The notes under the pieces were generated by a model that had not been told where the DNA came from, searched no databases, and saw only the letters and a program-made list of their open reading frames with translations. This document shows, piece after piece, positions 37,586 through 48,870 of a stretch of 64,000 bases of DNA; positions within the stretch are counted from its first letter, which is position 1, and each line of letters starts with the position of its first letter. The DNA lies in NCBI GenBank assembly GCA_001465115.1, contig CP013614.1, positions 1,550,001-1,614,000 of the forward strand, written 5' to 3'. The translations under genes were made by a program, and so were the position numbers. Source of the stretch: Enterococcus silesiacus (GTDB lineage Bacteria > Bacillota > Bacilli > Lactobacillales > Enterococcaceae).

Positions 37586-38722
37586 CTAACTATCTTGTTT
37601 CTTTTTTTTAGGTTTATTAGACGCTTGTGTTTTACTACTCTTTTTTTTAGAAGTTTTATTCGGACGTTTACGATTATTGCGTTTACGTATAAACACAAGT
37701 CCTCCAAAGACGATCATAATAACTAGTAATATCCCACCAACAATTAATCCAATTGTTTGCCAATCGATTCCTTTTTCCTGAACCAAACCGACATCTCGTT
37801 CGTTAAATCTGTCTGCATCTTTTTGCTTGATTTCAAACTCTTGATCCCATGACCACTTCTTATCACCAGATATCATCAAGATTTTGGCTTTGTATTTCCC
37901 TGCTTTCATTTTTTCACCATTCATGCTTATAGGAAAATTGATGAATGAATTTGGTGCCATTCGCATAGCAGTCTGCTTCCGTTCGTATATAACGGCATCG
38001 TTATCTTTTTCTGTTATTTGCACCTCTGCTGTAATATCATTTAAATAAGCAGCTTCTATATTTGAAACATTCACAAAAATAGCATTTCGGGCGTTATCTT
38101 GATCCGCTTTCACACTATTCAGTTCCAATTTAGGTTCTATAACTTTGTCTGTTTCCTGTAACAAAATTCCAACGATATAAGCATATTGATTAATGATTTG
38201 AGAACCAGCTTTTTTATCTTTTTCGCCTTGGTCCGCACGCATAAGTTGAACACCACCGGCTAAGGTACCATCAAAAGCTATTGCTGGCATTTTAATGGTT
38301 AAATCAAGGTCTTTTGTTTCTCCTGGACCTAGCTCTACAGTTTTTGGTGCTGTCACAATGTCTTTAAAATCTATTTTTAAAGAAGAATCATTTTCAATGA
38401 TAGAGTCCCCGTATTCAATCACACCATTTTGATTGGTTTTAGCGCCATTTAAACGAACATTTACCGTAAGCTTTTCTGAGCCTGGATTTGTCAATGCTAT
38501 TTTGATTACTTGCTGATCATTTGGATTCATTTTCAATTTATAATAGCCTAGATTCTCTTCCATTTGATTTTCTGGATAAGAAACTTTATATGTAAATCCA
38601 GTTGCACCACCTGGGTCGTTATTTGCATTTACATTTTGAACATCAGCAGTCATTGATATAACTAATAGTCCAAGTAGACTGAATAAAGTCAGCAATATTT
38701 TTTTCTTCATCACTTTTTTCAT
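37586..38722 (-). CDS. WxL-interacting protein with DUF916 and DUF3324 domains
   Basis: Membrane-anchored partner of WxL proteins, 378 residues. A signal peptide (1-33) is followed by DUF916 (about 40-165, TYKVSYPENQ start), DUF3324 (about 175-300), a membrane helix (about 325-347) and a basic tail, RKRNNRKRPNKTSKKK. In enterococcal WxL loci these proteins bind peptidoglycan and hold WxL proteins at the surface. Its ribosome site is weak, and a hairpin at 38791-38817 lies in front, so expression is probably lower than for the upstream WxL gene. Confidence 0.9.
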   Translation of the reverse strand: MKKVMKKKILLTLFSLLGLLVISMTADVQNVNANNDPGGATGFTYKVSYPENQMEENLGYYKLKMNPNDQQVIKIALTNPGSEKLTVNVRLNGAKTNQNGVIEYGDSIIENDSSLKIDFKDIVTAPKTVELGPGETKDLDLTIKMPAIAFDGTLAGGVQLMRADQGEKDKKAGSQIINQYAYIVGILLQETDKVIEPKLELNSVKADQDNARNAIFVNVSNIEAAYLNDITAEVQITEKDNDAVIYERKQTAMRMAPNSFINFPISMNGEKMKAGKYKAKILMISGDKKWSWDQEFEIKQKDADRFNERDVGLVQEKGIDWQTIGLIVGGILLVIMIVFGGLVFIRKRNNRKRPNKTSKKKSSKTQASNKPKKKKQDS

Positions 38723-38790
38723 AATTCACCTCATATATATAATTACTACTCTTATTCAGTATGTATACACTAAAAAAACATGGAAAAAGC

Positions 38791-38817
38791 AAGCTGATGA
38801 GAAAACGTCATCAGCTT
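38791..38817 (-). terminator. intra-operon hairpin between WxL and DUF916 genes
   Basis: Ten-base arms AAGCTGATGA and TCATCAGCTT with a 7-nt loop, followed on the minus strand by GCTTTTTCC. It is probably a partial terminator that makes the upstream WxL gene more abundant than the downstream genes. Confidence 0.65.
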
Positions 38818-38834
38818 ACCTCAGAATTAATTAC

Positions 38835-39635
38835 TTACGCTGCTGCAACAATTTTCCAAGTTACTTTAGCTGTATATGTGTCAAGAACCATATTTGATGC
38901 AGTTGTTGTAGGAACTGTTAATTGCACAGAACTTGCATCTGTTCCAGGTGCGCCAGCTGGAGCTCCTGTGCCAGGTTTGTAATCAGCACTTTGACCAAAT
39001 TCTAATACATATGTCCCTTTACCTTCTTTGTTGGCCTTATCAGCAGTTACAACTGTTTTAGCTCCGCCTTGGTATGCCAATTCAAATCCGTTTAAAACAT
39101 TAGATGGTACAGTGTTTTTGTTGGCACCTTCTGGTACAGCCATCCCATTAGAATAAGTAATCGTTGAGTTTGCAAGAGTTGTTGCATTTGTAGCTGATCC
39201 TGTAAATTGTTGTGTTAATTCTGCTGTTACTGTATATCCAACTGTTGCTCCACCACGAACATCAGTCCAACCAACGATTGCTCCACGTGTGCCAGTTCCT
39301 GCTGGTGTTGCATTTGATAAATCAATAGCTGCAGCATATTTTTTGATTTCTTTAGTATCTGTACTAATCTTTCCAAAGCTCAAGTTTGAAACTTGGTCGA
39401 TTATTAAGGCACCAGCATCCGGGTTTGTTGGTATTTCTGGATGTTCAGGTAATTTTTCATCTGGTTTTTCTGGATCGGGTGTTTTATCTTTACCATTAGT
39501 ACCACCTTCATCAACAGTTACTGTGCCTGTTGAATCTAGTTCTCCTGGAGCTGCAAATGCTTGTGCCGCTCCTCCTGTTGATGCTACTAAAACTCCTGCT
39601 ACTACTGCTGCTGTACATAAACTTCTTAATTTCAT
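38835..39635 (-). CDS. WxL-domain surface protein with altered first motif
   Basis: Secreted 266-residue protein. A signal peptide (1-28, ending AFA) is followed by a Pro/Glu/Asp linker (about 45-72) and one WxL domain to the C terminus. The second motif is VTWKIVAAA. At the first motif the aligned DxRG...GWTL of its neighbour reads TDVRGGATVGYTVTAEL, so Trp is replaced by Tyr. WxL domains bind peptidoglycan non-covalently. It is shorter than the 829-residue protein and probably the major component; a GGAAG ribosome site and the hairpin downstream agree with that. Confidence 0.88.
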   Translation of the reverse strand: MKLRSLCTAAVVAGVLVASTGGAAQAFAAPGELDSTGTVTVDEGGTNGKDKTPDPEKPDEKLPEHPEIPTNPDAGALIIDQVSNLSFGKISTDTKEIKKYAAAIDLSNATPAGTGTRGAIVGWTDVRGGATVGYTVTAELTQQFTGSATNATTLANSTITYSNGMAVPEGANKNTVPSNVLNGFELAYQGGAKTVVTADKANKEGKGTYVLEFGQSADYKPGTGAPAGAPGTDASSVQLTVPTTTASNMVLDTYTAKVTWKIVAAA

Positions 39636-39672
39636 TTGTATTAACTTCCTCTCTTTTTTGAGTTAAAATTTA

Positions 39673-40485
39673 TTAAGGCAACTTGGCTAATATCCAAGTT
39701 ATCTCCGTTTCGTATTGTACCGGATAAATCTTTGTTGATTCAGGTATCGTTAGGCTAACTGCAGAATTGGTATATGCTGGTTTTTTATAAACCTCATCAA
39801 TCACTGCTTTACCATCACTATCTTTGAGTGGTTTTAATGTTGCTGATTGCTGGTTACTATTCGCTTCTGATGCTCCAAAAGCAATTGTCCAGACTCCTCT
39901 ACCCGTGCCAGGTGACGCCGTTGCAACCTCATATGCAGTATTTATTGCATTTAATCCAATGGTTTCTCTTGTCACAGTTGGTGCTTGACTGTCACCACTG
40001 GAGTTTGCCCAGCCTTTGTCCAAAGAAAGATAAGCGCCAACTAATGTTTGTTCTTCTTGTTTTTGAATCACAGGATTGTGAAATTGTGTATTCTGCTTAA
40101 CTTGAAGCGTCCAACCAGTTGATGAACCACGCTGATCTGTAATTTGAATATAGCTTCCTCTAGGCTCTGTCTCATCGAAAAATTGTTGTGCCAACGCTTC
40201 GTATGTTCGCTCGTTTTTTTTGATTATTGCCTTGTTAAAGTTCAAGGCAGAAACATAATCAATTCTTAGCGGTCCCGTTGTATTGGGGCTTTCACCAGGA
40301 TCTACTGTTGTTCCAGGATTTTCTGGATCAATTGGTTTTGTATGATCACTTCCTGTAACAGTGACACTCCCAGAACCGTCTAAAGTATCTGCTGTTGCAA
40401 AACTTACTTCTTGTTTAAAACTGACTGAAATAAGACAAACTACAGTTACCATCGTTAGCTGAAAAGGAATCTTCAATCTCATCAT
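39673..40485 (-). CDS. WxL-domain surface protein
   Basis: Secreted 270-residue protein with a signal peptide (about 1-30) and a C-terminal WxL domain. Both motifs are clear: GWTLQVKQ after TDQRGSST, and ITWILAKLP at the very end. The linker PIDPENPGTTVDPGESPN is typical. It overlaps the LPXTG gene by 4 bp (ATGA) with a GGAGGAG ribosome site inside that gene's end, so the two are coupled. Confidence 0.9.
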   Translation of the reverse strand: MMRLKIPFQLTMVTVVCLISVSFKQEVSFATADTLDGSGSVTVTGSDHTKPIDPENPGTTVDPGESPNTTGPLRIDYVSALNFNKAIIKKNERTYEALAQQFFDETEPRGSYIQITDQRGSSTGWTLQVKQNTQFHNPVIQKQEEQTLVGAYLSLDKGWANSSGDSQAPTVTRETIGLNAINTAYEVATASPGTGRGVWTIAFGASEANSNQQSATLKPLKDSDGKAVIDEVYKKPAYTNSAVSLTIPESTKIYPVQYETEITWILAKLP

Positions 40486-40835
40486 TCCTGCTCCTCCTTT
40501 TTATGATTTCGCATAAATAAAAGGAAAGCACTTAGTAATAATATTGCTCCACCAATCCATCCGTATCGCTTGACTAGCTCTCCTGTACTAGGTAATCTCC
40601 CTTTAGGTTTTTCTGTAACCAAATTAGAAGAATCTGAAGTACTTGGTTCTGTGGAGGAGCTTGCTTCTATCGATGAGCTACTTTCTTCATAAAACGTGAT
40701 TTTACCGCCTCTGATTACTTGTCCACCACCGCCTTGTGAAGCTTCAACTTGATTAGAATTTAAAACGATCAATCCAACCAAACCTAGCCACGCAACTATA
40801 AGGAGGGATAAAATAAAACTCTTTTTCTTTTTCAT
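40482..40835 (-). CDS. small LPXTG cell-wall-anchored protein of the WxL cluster
   Basis: A 117-residue sortase substrate. A signal peptide (about 1-33) is followed by a Ser/Glu/Thr-rich spacer of about 35 residues, then LPSTG, a hydrophobic helix and the charged tail NHKKEEQE. Short LPXTG proteins are a constant part of WxL loci. The start is at 40835, with AGAGGGAG upstream; the longer frame lies inside the previous gene's end. No sortase gene lies in the window, so the housekeeping sortase must act on it. Confidence 0.9.
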   Translation of the reverse strand: MKKKKSFILSLLIVAWLGLVGLIVLNSNQVEASQGGGGQVIRGGKITFYEESSSSIEASSSTEPSTSDSSNLVTEKPKGRLPSTGELVKRYGWIGGAILLLSAFLLFMRNHKKEEQE

Positions 40836-40851
40836 ATTCTTTCTCCCTCTC

Positions 40852-43341
40852 TTATGGTTGTCCAGCCATGATTTTCCAAGTAATAACCCCAATATATTCA
40901 CCAGTGTATACTGTATCGGAAGAATTTATTTGGAGCTTGATTCCGTCAGTACCTTGAGTTGTTCCCCATTTATCACTGACTATAAATTTCCCATCTTTCC
41001 CTTCAATATTGGTATAGACCACTTGAGCATTTGAATCAAGGATCGATTCTTTTCCTTTGTCCACATAACGTAGTGCATTGACTAATTCTTGTCCCTTATC
41101 ATTTTTCATAGGATCAGCTAATTCAGCAGTTAAATACCACCCTTGTATAGGATTAGCACGAGTATCTGAAATAACTAACTTCTCTTTGAATGTAGGATTC
41201 TCTACCCGTTGGTCTTTAGCATCATACGTTAAGTTACCAAAGTTTAACGTTTTTGGAACAGAATCTAACGCAAGATTCCCTTGAAATTTATAGGTGACCG
41301 TTCCTGCACTATAAGGTGTCTTATTTTCTGGAAAAGGATTATCCCAAGCCAGCTTTGTATATCCCTTTGAAACTAGATCAGATATAATCCCTTGAACAAT
41401 GGTATTTTCCGACAAATCAATGCTGTCAGTTGTATTTCCATCTAAAACTACTGGTGTATGAATCTCATTGCCACCTTCGCCCATAAATTGAATGGTTAGT
41501 GAGGTACTTACATCTTTGATCGTAATGGTTACAACCTTTTCAGTAGTAACTCCTTTAGCAGTTGTTAAAATTAATGTGACCTTTTGTTCACCTAAAATCG
41601 ATGAATTTGGCTGTACACCATTTTTATAGGTAACATAAATAGGTTCATCAATCTTATTTTTCGTATCAACTCTTAAGTTTTCCAAATAAGCTGTTTGCTC
41701 GTCTACTTTAGAAAAATCAGTCCCTTTTGAGAATGTAATATTCTCTATAGGATCACCATCTGGAACCCCTTCATATAACACTTTAGATATTGTTTGGTTA
41801 TCAATAACCTTTGCTTCTAAAGTATCTTTAAATTTCTCTTGGCCAGAAGGTTCTTTATAAACATAAGACATTTTAGTTTTGACACCAGCTTGTTCAAAAC
41901 TCATGAACCCATTGTCATCTGGTAAATTGGCATCATTAATATAATTATATGCGTCCGGATCAAATTTAAAGGTACTATTTGGTTTGGCGACTATTTTAAT
42001 ATCAAATACATGCGCATTGAATACTTTGGAGTTAGGATTTAAAGGATCTAGGTCTGCAGTTGGATCTTTTGCTGATATAATGACTTTAGAATCTGATTCA
42101 GGGCTTTTTGTAATATTAAATATGCTGGTATACTCTTCGGTGGTTCCATATTCAAAAATTTTCACTGAATCAAAATCAATAGAATAGTAACTAGGTACTT
42201 CTGTTTCTAGTGTAAAACTACTATCTCTATTTAATTTTGTGTTATCAGCAATATTTTGCAGAATAGAGTAACTCAGCTCTCTATATTTTGGATCAGTATG
42301 CGTCACACTATTACGTTGACCAAATACGATAGGTCTAGCAGGTGCAATTCTAGCTATTGATTCTGTCATATAAAGGATTCCCATGTTACCTGTATTGGTA
42401 TCTGGGTTTGTTGGTGGTGTATTAGAAGCATTTCCATATCGTCGTTCCATCTTCATCGTATAACTGTCCTTTTCGAAAAGATGTGTGAGACGACCACTTT
42501 TTTTATTCACTTTATTATTTCCACCATACATTTCTATATATCCTGGAATTGGCGTATCTAATTTGTATCCAATATCCATTTTAGAATCAGCTTCCGCACC
42601 ACCTGCTAATCCATACATTTTACTGAAATCATTGGCAAACGGAATACTTGTAGCTTTTAAATTGTTGATATTATTAAAGTTCCAAGCTCCTGAAAGAACA
42701 AACCGTTGCTTTGACTCGCTATCATAAAATTCATAATGATAATCAACGGTATCACCAATATGATATTTATCACTGGTCTCGGCCAGGGTAGACGAAGTAC
42801 TTCCAACCATTAAATAAAGATCATTCCACGTATTCATTTGTGAAACTGGCTTATTATCTTGCGAATATTTATCCAATGGATCAACTGCAATAAAGTTAAA
42901 ATTAGGATACACACCTGGTTTACCTTCAACTTCTCTAAAAGCCATATTATCAATCACCAATTTCAAATCGACGCTTCGGCCATTGTAGATACCAGCATTT
43001 CTAATCCAAACGCCTCGTTCAGGATATTTATCTTGATCGATTGGATTAAATTGATATCCGTTAGAATTAGATCCTCGAATATTTTTAGCAATATTTGACT
43101 CACCAAAACCTTGGTACTCTACTTTATCAGTCAATTTGAACATAAAACCATATTCACCAGGAATTTCTACTGAAGCTCCCATTGAATCATCTTCCATGTT
43201 GATATTTTCAGCTTGTGATAAATCTTTATAACCAACTGGTGTAACCGCTGATATAGGTTCTGGATTTTTTATAAAAAAGTACACCGAACAAGCTAATACA
43301 ACTAATATTGAAACAACTAAATACTTCTTAACTTTCCACAT
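40852..43341 (-). CDS. large WxL-domain surface protein, probable adhesin
   Basis: An 829-residue secreted protein. A membrane/signal helix (about 6-24) is followed by an N-terminal domain of about 280 residues resembling lectin-like domains of such proteins, further Ig-like beta domains (about 420-690), and a C-terminal WxL domain with GWYLTAEL and VITWKIMAGQP. It probably provides the ligand-binding part of the surface complex; the ligand is unknown. The following LPXTG gene starts 17 bp after its stop. Confidence 0.87.
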   Translation of the reverse strand: MWKVKKYLVVSILVVLACSVYFFIKNPEPISAVTPVGYKDLSQAENINMEDDSMGASVEIPGEYGFMFKLTDKVEYQGFGESNIAKNIRGSNSNGYQFNPIDQDKYPERGVWIRNAGIYNGRSVDLKLVIDNMAFREVEGKPGVYPNFNFIAVDPLDKYSQDNKPVSQMNTWNDLYLMVGSTSSTLAETSDKYHIGDTVDYHYEFYDSESKQRFVLSGAWNFNNINNLKATSIPFANDFSKMYGLAGGAEADSKMDIGYKLDTPIPGYIEMYGGNNKVNKKSGRLTHLFEKDSYTMKMERRYGNASNTPPTNPDTNTGNMGILYMTESIARIAPARPIVFGQRNSVTHTDPKYRELSYSILQNIADNTKLNRDSSFTLETEVPSYYSIDFDSVKIFEYGTTEEYTSIFNITKSPESDSKVIISAKDPTADLDPLNPNSKVFNAHVFDIKIVAKPNSTFKFDPDAYNYINDANLPDDNGFMSFEQAGVKTKMSYVYKEPSGQEKFKDTLEAKVIDNQTISKVLYEGVPDGDPIENITFSKGTDFSKVDEQTAYLENLRVDTKNKIDEPIYVTYKNGVQPNSSILGEQKVTLILTTAKGVTTEKVVTITIKDVSTSLTIQFMGEGGNEIHTPVVLDGNTTDSIDLSENTIVQGIISDLVSKGYTKLAWDNPFPENKTPYSAGTVTYKFQGNLALDSVPKTLNFGNLTYDAKDQRVENPTFKEKLVISDTRANPIQGWYLTAELADPMKNDKGQELVNALRYVDKGKESILDSNAQVVYTNIEGKDGKFIVSDKWGTTQGTDGIKLQINSSDTVYTGEYIGVITWKIMAGQP

Positions 43342-43514
43342 AATCGTTCCTCCTTTCTCTATTATTTTTTTCTTTTTCTAGTTTAAATACTGAGAAAACA
43401 GACTTGTAAAAATGGCCGTACAAAAGCCCAATTTCCTTTATGTTAATGCTGATGTACTGACCACTTTACTTATTTTGATTTTAAATACTTAGAATAGGAC
43501 TTGCTACTCTCAGC

Positions 43515-44849
43515 TTAAATTCCGCCAGATGCTAAAGAAATTTTTCCGTAGTTTTCCATTTTAAATTGTTGTGATAAATCACCAGTTACAGATAATGTCT
43601 TGCTGTTGCAAATTTTACCGAAATTAACGGCAAAGTTACCACCATCAAATTCACTTACTGGATTTTCAGTGTATTCTCCACCAATTTGATTCCATGTAGA
43701 GATTGTTCCAATGTCAGTACCGTTGATTGTTGTATTTGTAGAATAGAATAATTTACTATTCGCTTTCTTATTTGCAATTTCAACGTTTTCAGGAGCATTT
43801 AAATTGATAACAGCGCCTTTATATTCACTTTCAATGACAGCTTTGGTACTGTTACCAGTTACTACTAATTCAGCGCCTTCTGAAACATTTACTTCTGATC
43901 CATAATATTGAAGTTTCATTGTCGCGTAGTTACCTCCACCACGACCATTAAACTTCACGTGGCTATCACTTGCTAAATTCAATGTAGGTTTTTTGTTTAT
44001 ATAATCAGCACGTGGAATAAATTGGAAAGCAACGCCAGCTGCATCAACATCAAAAGTAGCACCAGCGCCTACATCAACTTTTTGAACTTTGTCATAAAAT
44101 ACTGGGTAATAGTGATTAACTGTACTTTGTGGCCCAATTTTTACATTTACTTTTGCACGGTCGCCAATGATCGCTTCTCCAGTTGCTTTGCCTTTGATCA
44201 AAGCGCCATTGAAGTAGAATGCTGAGAATTGACCGTGGTCTTTATTCGCAGCAATTCCGTTATAAGTTGAACCAGCTTTAAATTCTAAATCATGCACCCA
44301 AGCATTTTCAGCACGAGTTGTGATATTGTTTGTTCCATCAAAAGTTAATTTACCTTCACTTAAATGGACAAAGCGCGCACCAGTGTACGTGACATTTTTC
44401 GCTAAAACATCCCAACCATAACTTGAAGGACCGTTACCAGCACCACCAGTGAAGAAACGCCCGTCACTGTCAGCTCCAACGATATTAGCATTGGTAATTG
44501 TTACCAAGTTTGTGCCTGCTTTGTTTTGTTTACCATAGATAGAGTTATGTGCTGAGTTGATCACTACACCTTTATCTGCATTCCCATTGATTGTTACATC
44601 ACGGTTAGGAATATCGGTAATATTTTTTTTGAACTGGATACTTTGATTTACATTGATCAAAGTGATTGCTGGATTTTTCAATGCTGCATCAAATTCTTCA
44701 ATCGTTGATACTTCAGCTGTTTCTTCTGCTGCATAAGCAATGACTGAATCTCCTGTAAAAGGCGTAGGCACAGATAATACTACTGCTCCTAGTGCTACTG
44801 TTGCTGCTAATGTCAGCAAACTTCTTTTTAATACTTGTGTTTTTTTCAA
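43515..44849 (-). CDS. secreted beta-helix (pectate-lyase-like) protein of the WxL cluster
   Basis: A 444-residue protein with a signal peptide (1-41, ending AYA) and many short repeating beta-strand turns (VTINGNADKGVVINS, KLTFDGTNNITT, VNVKIGPQST and others). This is the pectate-lyase-like adhesive domain common in WxL loci. No catalytic motif is visible, so an adhesive or structural role is more likely than lyase activity. It has no WxL domain or LPXTG. The start is TTG with AGGAGG upstream. It is first of the structural genes and has a 360-bp leader with a short reading frame (44946-44996). Confidence 0.82.
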   Translation of the reverse strand: MKKTQVLKRSLLTLAATVALGAVVLSVPTPFTGDSVIAYAAEETAEVSTIEEFDAALKNPAITLINVNQSIQFKKNITDIPNRDVTINGNADKGVVINSAHNSIYGKQNKAGTNLVTITNANIVGADSDGRFFTGGAGNGPSSYGWDVLAKNVTYTGARFVHLSEGKLTFDGTNNITTRAENAWVHDLEFKAGSTYNGIAANKDHGQFSAFYFNGALIKGKATGEAIIGDRAKVNVKIGPQSTVNHYYPVFYDKVQKVDVGAGATFDVDAAGVAFQFIPRADYINKKPTLNLASDSHVKFNGRGGGNYATMKLQYYGSEVNVSEGAELVVTGNSTKAVIESEYKGAVINLNAPENVEIANKKANSKLFYSTNTTINGTDIGTISTWNQIGGEYTENPVSEFDGGNFAVNFGKICNSKTLSVTGDLSQQFKMENYGKISLASGGI

Positions 44850-45210: not shown

Positions 45211-45930
45211 TTAAATATTTAACATGTAACCTTTGGAGCGGACCGTTTTAATGTATTTCGGTTTTTCGATATCTACTTCAAGTTTTTGTCTTAAATGGAA
45301 AATCAAATTGGACACTCGGTATTTTCGATCATGATAGGTATCGTTCCAAACACTTTGATAAATTTCTTCATATGTCATTGTTTTGCGTGCATGTTTATGT
45401 AAATATTCAATTGTAAGAAATTCTAATTTTGTTAAATTGACTTCCTTTCCATTTTCTAAACAAACACTCAAATTCTGTGGGATCAATTTAAATTCAACCA
45501 TTTTGCTTCTTGATGTTTCTTTGAGAATCCCATATTGTTCTCGATTCCGAAAACGTCTCATTAGATTTCTCATCATCAATATCGATTGATCGGTTTCGTT
45601 TGCTTGGTCGATAATACCGTCTGCACCTAATTGTAGATAAACAATCCGGTTTGTTCGATTCACGTGTTCTGATGAAGCTAAAATCCAAAGCGGTACAGTT
45701 GCCTGTTTGCGTATATTCATGATCAGCTCACAAATCCAATTAAGCTCATTTAAGCCAGAATTTTCAATGACTAACGTATCTATTTGATGCAATACTTCGC
45801 TATCATGTTCAAACAGTTGATCAGCATGCTTTTTTTCAATAATTTGAATGTGAGATTGAAGTGGTGTAAATAATTCTTTATAGCCTTCGCTTACTCGATC
45901 TTCAAACGAAATATAGCCTATTGTATACAT
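45211..45930 (-). CDS. OmpR-family regulator with atypical receiver domain
   Basis: A 239-residue transcription regulator just upstream of the WxL genes. The C-terminal winged helix is typical (LTKLEFLTIEYLHKHARKTMTYEEIYQSVW, and RVSNLIFHLRQKLE, ending YIKTVRSKGYML). The N-terminal domain (about 1-120) has receiver fold markers, but the phospho-acceptor Asp is replaced by E56 (TLVIEN) and the usual Lys of TKP is missing (IIDQAN). No histidine kinase gene is adjacent, so it probably works without phosphorylation. The start at 45930 follows GGGGGGAGG; the upstream in-frame ATG is inside that site. Confidence 0.85.
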   Translation of the reverse strand: MYTIGYISFEDRVSEGYKELFTPLQSHIQIIEKKHADQLFEHDSEVLHQIDTLVIENSGLNELNWICELIMNIRKQATVPLWILASSEHVNRTNRIVYLQLGADGIIDQANETDQSILMMRNLMRRFRNREQYGILKETSRSKMVEFKLIPQNLSVCLENGKEVNLTKLEFLTIEYLHKHARKTMTYEEIYQSVWNDTYHDRKYRVSNLIFHLRQKLEVDIEKPKYIKTVRSKGYMLNI

Positions 45931-46043
45931 TATTAAAACCTCCCCCCTTATCATCATATTGTCATACGTCTGGTTATTTTTTCCTTTAATTACAGCCTCT
46001 AGTTCTTCCGAAGTCTTTAGAGTTTAGAAAATCATGATTTCCG

Positions 46044-46049
46044 ATTATA
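46044..46049 (-). promoter_or_regulatory. candidate -10 element of the WxL regulator
   Basis: TATAAT on the minus strand, 115 bp before the regulator start and 67 bp outside the left inverted repeat. No good -35 is seen 17 bp away (TATATG), so it may need an activator or upstream sequence. Confidence 0.4.
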
Positions 46050-46115
46050 ATAGGTATGTTTCTATCCATATATGGCTTAAACAGACAACGACAGTACAAA
46101 AATAGTTATTTCAAT

Positions 46116-46145
46116 TTTTTCTTGAATGTAGCAGTTACAAGAAAA
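46116..46145 (+). repeat. left 30-bp inverted repeat of the integrase module
   Basis: TTTTTCTTGAATGTAG then CAGTTACAAGAAAA; the exact reverse complement is at 47791-47820. The core is two 9-bp arms (TTCTTGAAT and TTACAAGAA) around a 7-bp asymmetric spacer, the form of a tyrosine-recombinase crossover site. Confidence 0.9.
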
Positions 46146-46260
46146 AGACGTTTTTTCGTTATTATCCTTGAAACTTATTCTATAGTTGACCATTTTATGA
46201 CGGCTTAAAGTACAGACCAATCAAAAAAATTGACTCTTGTGCTGTTTAACCTAAATAAAG

Positions 46261-46305
46261 AAAAGGTCGGAGACACAACGCAACTGGTTATGTCTCCGAC
46301 CTTTT
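46261..46305 (-). terminator. bidirectional terminator after the integrase gene
   Basis: AAAAGGTCGGAGACA pairs with TGTCTCCGACCTTTT. T runs are present on both strands. In the present orientation it separates the integrase transcript from the WxL regulator. Confidence 0.85.
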
Positions 46306-46352
46306 CTATACAAGTAAATAATAATTTTGATCCTTGCTACTAGCTGTTTTAA

Positions 46353-47480
46353 TTATTTGGGCAATACGTGCTGCAAGCCAAGTTGATCATCAAGGACTGA
46401 AACAGCTGCTTTTCTATTTTCCCATAGTGAATCGGTATAAGTATCTAAGGTCAATTTTATCGATGCATGTCCTAGTAACTTACTTAAGGTTGCGATATCA
46501 ATACCTCGTTCTACACATCGGGTAGCAAATGTATGACGCAAAACATGAAAATGGATCGGTCTGATCTTTGCTTGCTCAATACTTTTTCTAAATCGATAAC
46601 TGATTACACGCGGCTCAGCATAACTATTTTTACACGAAATGACGTATTCAGAAGTAGCGATTTTCTGCTTGCTCAATAGATAATTTTTCAAATTTTTCGC
46701 CAAAGGAATAGCTCGTTTGGAACTTTTTGTTTTAGGTTCTGCCATAATGATCTCTGTTTTCTTACTTCTGGCTGTGCTAGAAATTCTGTACACGGTTCTT
46801 CTTACCGAAATAACATCCTTTTCAAAATCGATGTCTGACCATTTCAGGCCACTGATTTCACCAATTCTCAAACCTGTATACAAAGCTAAAATCACTGCTG
46901 AACAGTCCTTTTCGTTCAATGCTACTTGTTCGATTTTCCCTTGCTCTTTCATGCTCAATGCTGATATTTCATTGAGCGTATTAGGTGATAATGACAGGTT
47001 ATTACACGGGTTTGAAAGAATGTAATTTTCCATGCAGGCTTTGTTCATTGCACTTTTCAATACAGTTACTATTGAATGAACTGTTGAAGGAGACAACGCC
47101 AAGCTAGTTAAATAATTGACAAATTCTTCAACTTCTCGGCTTTTTAATTGTGTTAATTTTTTTTTTCCCAAAAATGGAACAATGTATTTATCGATACGCA
47201 AACGATAACTTGAATAAGTAGAAAGTTTGATTTTTTTTCGCATCAATACATCTAACCAATGGTTTAACCAATTTTGAACCGTCCCTTCATATAAATTGAC
47301 GCTATTATGGATAAAGGAATATTCTACTTTCAATTTAGCAAGCTTCTCTTTAACATAGGCATAACGTTTTCCATAAATATAGCCATAAATAATTTTGCCA
47401 TGTTCATTTCTCGCTTTCACATATCGTCCTTCCCAACGACCATCTTTCCTTTTATATATATTTTCACCTTTTCTACTCAA
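46353..47480 (-). CDS. tyrosine-type site-specific integrase
   Basis: A 375-residue recombinase of the Tn916/phage integrase type. The N-terminal AP2-like arm-binding domain (about 6-45, YKRKDGRWEGRYVKA) is followed by a SAM-like core-binding domain (about 65-155) and the catalytic domain. Catalytic residues are all present: R205 (TGLRIGE), K252, H312 and R315 (HVLRHTF), H338 (LLGHAS) and Y348 (TLDTYTD). It starts with TTG behind AAAGGGTG. There is no excisionase or any phage gene nearby; the gene is alone between 30-bp inverted repeats. Confidence 0.93.
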   Translation of the reverse strand: MSRKGENIYKRKDGRWEGRYVKARNEHGKIIYGYIYGKRYAYVKEKLAKLKVEYSFIHNSVNLYEGTVQNWLNHWLDVLMRKKIKLSTYSSYRLRIDKYIVPFLGKKKLTQLKSREVEEFVNYLTSLALSPSTVHSIVTVLKSAMNKACMENYILSNPCNNLSLSPNTLNEISALSMKEQGKIEQVALNEKDCSAVILALYTGLRIGEISGLKWSDIDFEKDVISVRRTVYRISSTARSKKTEIIMAEPKTKSSKRAIPLAKNLKNYLLSKQKIATSEYVISCKNSYAEPRVISYRFRKSIEQAKIRPIHFHVLRHTFATRCVERGIDIATLSKLLGHASIKLTLDTYTDSLWENRKAAVSVLDDQLGLQHVLPK

Positions 47481-47790
47481 AACATGACACCCTTTCCCAA
47501 AAAAATTGACGGCTTATTTGACGGCTAAAAAATATAAATCTGCTTCTTCCGACTTATTGATAACAACACTGACTCGATCAAACATAAACTTAATGAGATA
47601 TTTTATAATAAGAGCGATCTATTCTTCATTTATCACTGTAATCATTTTCCATTTTTCTCATTTTTTTATAAAAATTAATAAAAATATGATAAAAAAATGA
47701 ACTTTTAGTTATAGACTCTTGCTTATTTTTGATATAGAATGAATTAGTAGTTGAAATGAATGAGCGATTGTACACGCCTGCTTTTCAAGG
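47481..47790. other. integrase 5' region inside the inverted repeats
   Basis: A 310-bp AT-rich stretch. It contains the direct repeat TTGACGGCT at 47506-47514 and 47518-47526 and several A/T-rich -10-like hexamers on both strands, none with a convincing -35. No gene was recognised. If the segment inverts, this stretch comes to lie upstream of the WxL regulator. Confidence 0.5.
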
Positions 47791-47820
47791 TTTTCTTGTA
47801 ACTGCTACATTCAAGAAAAA
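47791..47820 (-). repeat. right 30-bp inverted repeat of the integrase module
   Basis: Exact reverse complement of 46116-46145. It lies 311 bp upstream of the integrase start codon and 307 bp before the TraX-like gene. Confidence 0.9.
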
Positions 47821-47927
47821 TCATTTATCACTTTAATATAATTTCATTATAACAATATATCTTATATTTTTCACTGTTACATTTAGAATTTTCTTATTAT
47901 TTTTTCGTTTTATATCAAAAAAAACAT

Positions 47928-47965
47928 ACTACTGATAAAAACTGTCTAGCGTTTTTATCAGTAGT
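47928..47965. terminator. hairpin between the integrase module and the TraX-like gene
   Basis: Perfect 15-bp arms ACTACTGATAAAAAC and GTTTTTATCAGTAGT with an 8-nt loop, followed by TTTACTTTTC on the plus strand and a T-rich run on the minus strand. It would insulate the TraX-like gene from anything reading out of the right end. Confidence 0.75.
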
Positions 47966-48126
47966 TTTACTTTTCTCCTTAGAACTAACATTGAACTACT
48001 CTTCGCTTATTTTATTTCGTTACGCTGTAAAAAAAATCAGACAAGTTTTTCGATTTTTTGATTATACCGTCAATGATCTATGCTAAAATAGTGTCTTAAA
48101 CTAAACTATTCAGAGGAGTACTTGTA

Positions 48127-48870
48127 TTGAAAACAAAACCATTTTTTTCAGGAAGTCAATTGAAATGGCTGGCAATCTTTGCGATGCTACTGGATCATAT
48201 AGCAAAAATCATTTCATTTCAGCCAGCTACAACGGCATTAGTCCCTTATCTTACTGAAGCGCCCCCTTTGTTTCCCTTTACCCAAGTTATTTTTCCTATG
48301 TTTACGATGATTGGCAGACTAGCTTTTCCCATCTTTTGTTTTTTACTTGTCGAAGGGGTTATCCATACAGCAAATACAAAAAAATACTTGTTGCGTTTGT
48401 TCTTATTTGCTTTGATTGCTGAAATTCCCTATGACTTAGCTTTTTCGCACCAATTCATTGATTTAAAAAATCAAAACGTTTTTTTCACCTTGTTCATCGG
48501 CTTAATCGTTATTATTGGGTTGAAAAAAATACAGGTTCAATCATTAAAGAGTGGGATTCTTGCTGTAATAATAATTGGAAGTGGGATTTTTTTTGCAGAA
48601 TGGTTGCAGACAGATTACGGTGGTTGGATCGGTGTTTTGTTGATTGTGTCTTTCTATCTTTTTAGAGATGAACATTTAATAAAATGCATTGCGGGCGCGT
48701 TGATTCTTCTGCAAAACAGCTTGTTTGGACTTATCGCTTTTGTACCGATTTATTTTTATAATGGTCAACGTGGAAAACAATGGAAGTACTTTTTTTATTG
48801 GTTTTATCCAGTTCATTTACTTGTGTTGTATGGTATTCAAGAGTATTTGATTATGCCTTATTTAAATTAA
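48127..48870 (+). CDS. TraX family membrane protein
   Basis: A 247-residue protein with about eight membrane helices. It begins with the family block LKWLAIFAMLLDHI and has RLAFPIFCFLLVEG near residue 65. TraX acetylates F-pilin in E. coli; chromosomal Gram-positive homologues belong to the acyltransferase-3-like group and their substrate is unknown. It starts with TTG behind AGAGGAG. An extended -10 (TGCTAAAAT at about 48079) gives it its own promoter, downstream of the insulating hairpin. Confidence 0.88.
   Translation: MKTKPFFSGSQLKWLAIFAMLLDHIAKIISFQPATTALVPYLTEAPPLFPFTQVIFPMFTMIGRLAFPIFCFLLVEGVIHTANTKKYLLRLFLFALIAEIPYDLAFSHQFIDLKNQNVFFTLFIGLIVIIGLKKIQVQSLKSGILAVIIIGSGIFFAEWLQTDYGGWIGVLLIVSFYLFRDEHLIKCIAGALILLQNSLFGLIAFVPIYFYNGQRGKQWKYFFYWFYPVHLLVLYGIQEYLIMPYLN

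Follow-up and report, generated by a model that had tools for sequence, protein, structure and literature searches.

A probable invertible promoter cassette encoding its own tyrosine recombinase beside a WxL surface-protein cluster in Enterococcus

The stretch of DNA analysed here (the window) comprises 64,000 nucleotides of the Enterococcus silesiacus genome (GCA_001465115.1, contig CP013614.1, positions 1,550,001 to 1,614,000), and contains a segment of 1,705 bp, repeat to repeat, in which the gene for a tyrosine integrase lies between two perfect inverted repeats, next to a regulator gene that heads a WxL surface-protein cluster. We are confident, short of certainty, that this segment is an invertible promoter cassette encoding its own recombinase. 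Among related loci, the centres of the two repeats match locus by locus, homologous loci occur in flipped form, and one assembly contains both orientations of a single locus. Here we describe the cassette, its relatives and its likely mode of action, and weigh the alternatives.

The integrase locus

The 30-nt repeats, one on the regulator side (IRdn) and one upstream of the integrase (IRup), are, as a preliminary description made from the sequence had reported, exact reverse complements; 1645 nt separate them. Its further observations of an asymmetric 7-bp centre in each repeat and of a lone integrase between them also hold: the centre reads GTAGCAG in one copy and CTGCTAC in the other, and the integrase is the only substantial gene, a 102-aa open reading frame (ORF) on the opposite strand lying wholly within its own. 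Recurrence of the repeats at many unrelated places, which that description had named as an argument against a switch, is not seen; a 29-mer core of the repeats, with up to three mismatches allowed, finds the same two sites and no others both in the window (chance expectation 0.00) and in the whole genome of 3,928,141 bases.

The integrase is a tyrosine recombinase by its catalytic R-K-H-R-H-Y set, its fold and its Phage_integrase domain (PF00589). Every catalytic residue is indeed present (R205, K250, H312, R315, H338 and Y348), H312 being at least 90% conserved and the others invariant in a 35-member alignment, and no resolvase domain, the mark of a serine recombinase (Hin/DNA invertase), is found among its domain matches. 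In the predicted structure, an N-terminal beta-beta-beta-alpha domain with an arm-binding-type fold (strands at residues 8-10, 16-24 and 30-37, helix at 40-55) is followed by a SAM-like core-binding domain and the catalytic domain. The best structural match is Tn1549 Int, and the nearest solved relatives are integrases of integrative and conjugative elements (ICEs) and phages (Tn1549, lambda); only some matches reach the N-terminus (lambda Int does so over residues 1-364, with a root-mean-square deviation of 14.5), and residues outside 61-368 are barely probed by this comparison. The integrase has no match to the Pfam arm-binding domain; some members of the Int_Tn916 subgroup likewise lack one according to PMC8138268, which also gives as a subgroup trait a catalytic domain with beta strands inserted between its strands 2 and 3. 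In the phage collection, only integrases below 60% identity to that of the window were found.

The probable target, a winged-helix regulator, has a Trans_reg_C domain only, no receiver domain being found. Its start is likely the ATG at 45930, behind a predicted ribosome-binding site (GGGGGGAGG) and 185 bp from the repeat, which agrees with the 186 bp first reported, while its longest ORF starts at 45957, which would shorten the distance to 158 bp. The cluster downstream encodes a pectate-lyase-like adhesive protein, large and small WxL proteins and a WxL-interacting protein. Rfam gave no match around the locus. The features are collected in Table 1.

Table 1. Features of the cassette and its surroundings (window coordinates)
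Feature	Position	Strand	Remarks
IRdn, predicted crossover site on the regulator side	46116..46145	+	perfect repeat, matched centres, palindromic arms across loci, genome-unique
7-bp centre of IRdn	46128-46134		GTAGCAG
Second arm-type pair, just inside IRdn (putative)	46186..46204	-	GCCGTCA at 46198-46204 and degenerate GGTCAA at 46186-46191
Integrase terminator	46259..46307	-	inside segment; faces IRdn and regulator in present orientation
Tyrosine recombinase, 375 aa	46353..47480	-	sole substantial gene between repeats
Two direct copies of arm-type motif GCCGTCAA (putative)	47506-47513 and 47518-47525	-	12-bp period, just before integrase start
P_out, outward promoter-like site	47712..47740	+	inside segment; would read through IRup away from regulator in present orientation
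-35 element of P_out	47712-47717		TAGACT, followed by 17-bp spacer
-10 element of P_out	47735-47740		TAGAAT
IRup, predicted crossover site upstream of the integrase	47791..47820	-	perfect repeat, matched centres, palindromic arms, genome-unique
7-bp centre of IRup	47802-47808		CTGCTAC
Terminator-like hairpin outside IRup	47919..47974	+	stem 47928-47965; in path of P_out in present orientation
Winged-helix regulator, probable target	45211..45930	-	first gene of WxL cluster
WxL surface cluster downstream of regulator	37586..44849	-	PF20585, PF13731, PF11797, PF06030

Close orthologues keep the same neighbours on both sides of the segment. On the far side, a gene for a TraX-family membrane protein (PF05857; window 48127-48870), divergent from the cassette, adjoins it in 11 of the window's group of 12; in the remaining member (L045) the flank is short. 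An ICE, phage or transposon was considered as the identity of the segment and rejected in view of the conserved neighbours of the orthologues, the integrase-only content and the inverted end sites.

Matched repeat centres and flipped relatives

Related integrases are numerous. Each of the 22 Enterococcus genomes examined carries 6-13 of them (E 1e-60 or better; 194 in total), and related integrases are also found in 37 of 105 genomes of the wider bacterial family. In a phylum-wide sample, at least 8 of 398 genomes, that of the window included, have a member at E 1e-55, a lower bound since four candidates were scored per genome. We analysed 204 distinct integrase loci, a part of those in existence, after 19 duplicates and 11 edge or short matches had been dropped; an inverted repeat scoring at least 17 lies close around the integrase in 163 of these, a few of them weak.

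In the 121 loci with a clear 7-bp-centred palindrome (seven of the 128 repeat-bearing loci then available were left out because their palindromy was weak or a centre of 8 bp fitted best), the two copies agree at all seven central positions in every locus. The match within loci is lower at arm positions (101 of 121 at position -9, 100 of 121 at -7), and comparison of different loci puts the centre positions with the more variable ones (entropy 1.2-1.9 bits), with differing centres in 220 of 221 pairs of loci from the same genome. When, as a control for search bias, the centre was masked and sites were picked for matching arms and palindromy, identical centres were recovered in 106/106, 119/121 and 124/129 loci at scores of at least 33, 32 and 30, against 8/183, 11/332 and 11/722 for mismatched pairs, in which an upstream site was combined with the downstream site of a different locus. 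A masked-centre search by arm identity alone was uninformative, its level of 16 of 20 matches (attained by 151 of 167 loci) being reached by chance. These loci have, as an invertible switch would, two inverted sites with identical asymmetric centres, and centres that match within loci and differ between them are the mark of a strand exchange requiring homology at the crossover.

Comparison of orientation among relatives, proposed in the preliminary description, revealed more than one, which answers its counter-argument of a single orientation in all relatives. One assembly (G005) contains both orientations of the same locus. Bases 1-40,000 of its contig 1 match the last 40 kb at 99.9%, in a match that begins exactly at base 1, reaches within about 120 bases of the contig end and resembles an untrimmed circular overlap. 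Between the copies of the locus at the two contig ends (L193, G005:C1:15900-23100; L194, G005:C1:3818000-3825200) a 1,560-bp segment is reversed, and the unequal arms of its repeats show that the inner halves have been swapped with the outer halves in place. The exchange is confined to 14 bp (TATAACTTCTACTT) containing the centre CTTCTAC, and both breakpoints are resolved. Both states are thus present in one assembly and probably in one culture; if the contig instead has a genuine terminal duplication of 40 kb, two nearly identical copies would still differ by an inversion. None of the other 18 duplicate pairs has a reversed flank. Searching overlaps of this kind in assemblies is an inexpensive way of finding flipped switches.

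Flipped loci are also seen between homologues. L183 (in genome G017) is flipped relative to its orthologues L178 and L217, as is L251 (in G003) relative to L112, L250 and L115; in both, the flanks align in reverse and the segment forward, the forward block running from repeat to repeat (nearly so for L250 and L115), and the regulator-side flank abuts the repeat in the comparisons with L112, L178 and L217. A weaker case is a locus in a Streptococcaceae metagenome-assembled genome (MAG), L092, compared with that of Lactococcus chungangensis (L093, its integrase frame broken), where one flank aligns in reverse and the breakpoints are not pinned. Among the mutually alignable plasmid loci of E. raffinosus (L241, L244 and L245; L242 and L243) there is a single orientation.

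One orientation predominates. A regulator lies within 700 bp of 132 repeat-flanked loci, and in 129 of them it is downstream in the direction of the integrase; the other three are the flipped L183 and L251, together with L098, in which the regulator is upstream on the same strand. The bias is not the history of one clade, because the 129 co-oriented loci span 39 of the 67 integrase groups (65% identity). A freely flipping switch would split more evenly, so that flipping would have to be rare, biased or counter-selected in culture; equal, free phase variation is not supported at 129 to 2.

The same predominance could be taken to mean that the segment is a fixed relic or a minimal mobile element, with transposon-like end repeats and no inversion at present, a reading that also draws on the kinship of the integrase to those of ICEs and phages, and on a pair of E. 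raffinosus plasmids (L241 and L244) in which the segment is 78% identical between flanks of 98% (left) and 91% (right), a divergence that suggests replacement of the cassette between strains. Against it stand the half-site exchange between both orientations of one locus in one assembly, the flipped loci between species, the centres matched within and different between loci, the same neighbours across orthologues, and the conservation of promoter, arm and terminator signals inside the segment, points that all come from loci other than the window's own. We regard this explanation as very improbable.

Signals inside the segment and a proposed mechanism

A promoter-like pattern (T[TA]GA[CT]N, a 16-18 bp spacer and TANNNT), sought in the first 130 bp inside IRup, occurs on the outward strand in 142 of 163 loci and on the inward strand in 16, with a mean of 15.5 and a maximum of 19 in 20 rounds of dinucleotide shuffling and with 6, 11 and 2 in three 130-bp control regions. 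Nearly all of the outward patterns (140 of 142) lie 20-85 bp from the repeat, and 133 of these have a 17-bp spacer, as does the TAGACT found in all 12 members of the window's group. In 121 loci scanned with a position weight matrix (PWM), the mean best score is 17.4 outward, 14.8 inward and 15.2 in shuffles. Judged by pattern, the promoter would face the target in one orientation only. The earlier suggestion that inversion changes what lies upstream of the regulator can be refined accordingly, in that inversion would bring the conserved outward promoter-like site near IRup to face it. In the usual orientation P_out points away from the target, and the window is therefore in the predicted OFF state.

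Terminator signals accompany this arrangement. The hairpin behind the integrase, first placed at 46261-46305 and said to face the regulator, is real (-35 kcal/mol, z -10), and a terminator is found at this position in 62 of 163 loci (11-16 in shuffles). The hairpin outside IRup in the window is also stable (-18.5 kcal/mol, z -5.6); a terminator-like hairpin within 400 bp beyond IRup is present in 67 of 163 loci, compared with 16-26 in shuffles and 19 on the target side.

With such a terminator facing the regulator in the present state, the segment might invert and yet act by moving the integrase terminator, by antisense transcription or by modulating a separate promoter of the regulator, and 11 of the 12 group members of the window do share a conserved TATTATA box that lies upstream of the regulator and not within the segment. 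We consider such an effect unlikely, given that 142 of 163 loci have the outward promoter pattern next to IRup, against only 11 of 163 that have it in the 130 bp beyond IRdn towards the target. The region between repeat and regulator in the window (45931-46115) holds, besides the box, an imperfect dyad common to the group members (by eye), and is possibly an activator-dependent regulator promoter outside the segment.

Conserved repeats of GCCGTCA stand at fixed places inside the element as putative arm-type sites. The shorter CCGTCA is found before the integrase gene in 156 of 163 loci and inside IRdn in 151, against 8 outside IRdn and none outside IRup. Private core sites are accompanied, then, by a shared arm motif and an N-terminal fold of lambda/Tn916 type.

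In the invertible cassette as we envisage it, the core-binding and catalytic domains of the integrase would hold the 30-bp repeats, while its N-terminal domain would contact the internal GCCGTCA repeats; strands would be exchanged at the 7-bp centres, and the segment would flip. In the present orientation (OFF), P_out would fire through IRup, away from the regulator and towards the terminator-like hairpin, with the integrase terminator pointing at the regulator. Once flipped (ON), the segment would send transcription from P_out across the repeat into the regulator, and would thereby switch on the WxL operon. The rate of flipping and its regulation would leave OFF strongly favoured.

How that bias might arise leads to a narrower version of the same reading, overlapping with it in probability, in which the cassette is a directional switch turned ON by a signal, and not by random phase variation, with its return to OFF helped by a directionality factor or by the arm sites. 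The strong bias towards OFF (129 to 2), the N-terminal fold and the fixed places of the arm motifs favour such control, and the same kind of fold and sites guide direction in lambda Int, according to PMC8138268. On the other hand, the segment has no second substantial ORF and thus no obvious excisionase gene, both states coexist in the G005 assembly, and selection in laboratory culture would give the same bias. We hold this version to be possible, at somewhat less than even chances.

Several observations weigh against an invertible promoter cassette. No repeat was detected at 41 of the 204 family loci, and flipped loci make up only 2 of 132 (a third, L194, had been set aside from this count as a duplicate). 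Beyond the far repeat of L183 and L251 come 0.8-1.5 kb that cannot be aligned, and the second breakpoint is therefore placed by the end of the alignment of the segment itself. The PWM score exceeds z 2 in only 42% of the 121 loci; the P_out of the window is weak by consensus and scores no better than shuffles (z -0.1). The promoter pattern was set after the PWM scan had been seen, on overlapping loci, and the fair test is therefore the 43 loci outside that set, of which 31 have the pattern outward and 5 inward. Terminators are found in a minority of loci only, and the TATTATA box means that the regulator may have a second promoter and that OFF may not mean silent. Finally, the locus of the window was not seen flipped, all 12 members of its group (itself included) being co-oriented. 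The claim that the segment inverts itself is supported among relatives, where the half-site exchange of L193/L194, the flipped L183 and L251 and the matched centres speak for it and both orientations occur with breakpoints at the sites, and lacks such a case at the locus for which it was made.

Family members, targets and known systems

At least two of the 41 loci counted as repeat-less (L279 and L091) do have nearby repeats, the search having stopped at the predicted regulator start, and a wide search at the 41 loci for distant repeats also yielded L201 (an A/T-only match) and L113 (2.3 kb away). Arm motifs are missing as well in 26 of the 41. In three clades (18, 5 and 3 loci) repeats went undetected throughout, and 24 of these 26 loci have no arms; the clades comprise L126 (G000:C1:3019367-3020455) with 17 relatives (L079, L186, L080 and others), L123 with four, and L162 with two. 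Their integrase frames are full-length, many at the downstream end of WxL clusters, and the enzymes possibly act in trans or have a new role.

Eight more distant loci were fetched, with flanks too short to name targets. Seven have repeats of 22-36 nt around the integrase and one (L291) has none; the outward promoter pattern is present in three of the seven, and CCGTCA or GCCGTC lies close to the integrase in L288, L289, L290, L292 and L293, and not in L294 or L295. Among individual loci, Enterococcus sp. HY326 has two family integrases in tandem before one regulator (L087, 8416-11101). In E. crotali the orthologue of the window integrase is split into two reading frames (L047, 10001-11124) between two perfect 30-bp repeats identical to those of the window, possibly a locked switch.

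WxL or WxL-interacting genes lie on the same strand within 9 kb in 52 of the 71 repeat-flanked loci whose downstream sequence extends for 8 kb or more, and in E. gilvus the target is a WxL gene directly, with no regulator between. On the E. raffinosus plasmid pCX012922, a repeat-flanked integrase (L241, 8001-9062) precedes a helix-turn-helix gene together with an accessory SecA2/SecY2/Asp operon, and the switch is thus not confined to WxL genes. A Lactobacillales MAG (L074, 5415-6880) has 37-nt perfect repeats around its integrase, a strong outward promoter pattern and, downstream, genes with N-termini that resemble those of prepilins; it may switch a pilus or competence system.

A literature search, with subscription papers and bioRxiv mostly outside it, found no such switch described in enterococci or at WxL genes among the papers listed. 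We think it probable, with appreciable room for doubt, that these cassettes constitute a widespread and previously unrecognised class of Bacillota switch, in which lambda/Tn916-type integrases have been turned from mobility to self-encoded promoter inversion, each insulated by its private centre, nearly all sharing one arm motif, and with an arm architecture that holds OFF, so as to give a single enterococcal genome several heritable switches, orthogonal to one another, for its WxL operons and other surface operons. If so, enterococci would control many surface-adhesion clusters by heritable DNA flips, and since most isolates would be in the OFF state, laboratory cultures would miss these surface proteins. 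The cassettes would also supply a natural set of mutually insulated recombinase/site pairs, and would break the rule by which an arm-binding domain in an integrase signals a mobile element. As some relatives are flipped in nature and others are not, the directional control of inversion can be tested directly.

Among the closest known systems is the Salmonella H segment of flagellar phase variation, of which the cassette would be a Gram-positive counterpart with a tyrosine recombinase. Both are segments with their own recombinase gene and an outward promoter, a predicted one in the cassette, for a flanking operon; Hin is a named example of a recombinase within its own segment (PMC5903667), and the invertible fljBA promoter has been described (PMC9368917). 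Unlike Hin, a serine recombinase working with Fis/HU and an enhancer, the enzyme of the cassette is a tyrosine recombinase whose fold is of the arm-binding type, arm motifs lie within the segment, and the family is present in 6-13 integrase copies per Enterococcus genome, mostly at surface-protein clusters. The evidence supports a device that works like the Hin segment but is built from an ICE-type integrase of another superfamily.

The recombinase genes of fimS lie outside its 314-bp element, and their products are not known to have an arm-binding domain, whereas the cassette keeps its recombinase inside the segment and this enzyme looks heterobivalent. The two are alike in inversion by a tyrosine recombinase (FimB/FimE in fimS) of a promoter upstream of surface genes (PMC9993118), with ON/OFF logic, and the same holds for other promoter inversions by simple tyrosine recombinases. 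With the Int_Tn916 subgroup (Tn916, Tn1549 and phages) the integrase shares its three-domain plan; an arm-binding domain is a strong predictor of phage or ICE mobility (PMC8138268), and yet here the enzyme is the sole occupant of a stationary, probably invertible segment whose chromosomal neighbours are conserved.

As in the RecV switches of Clostridioides difficile and the Mpi system of Bacteroides, several invertible promoters per genome would control surface traits. RecV is one master recombinase for many sites, as is Mpi, whereas in the enterococcal cassettes each pair of repeats holds its own integrase gene and a private 7-bp centre.

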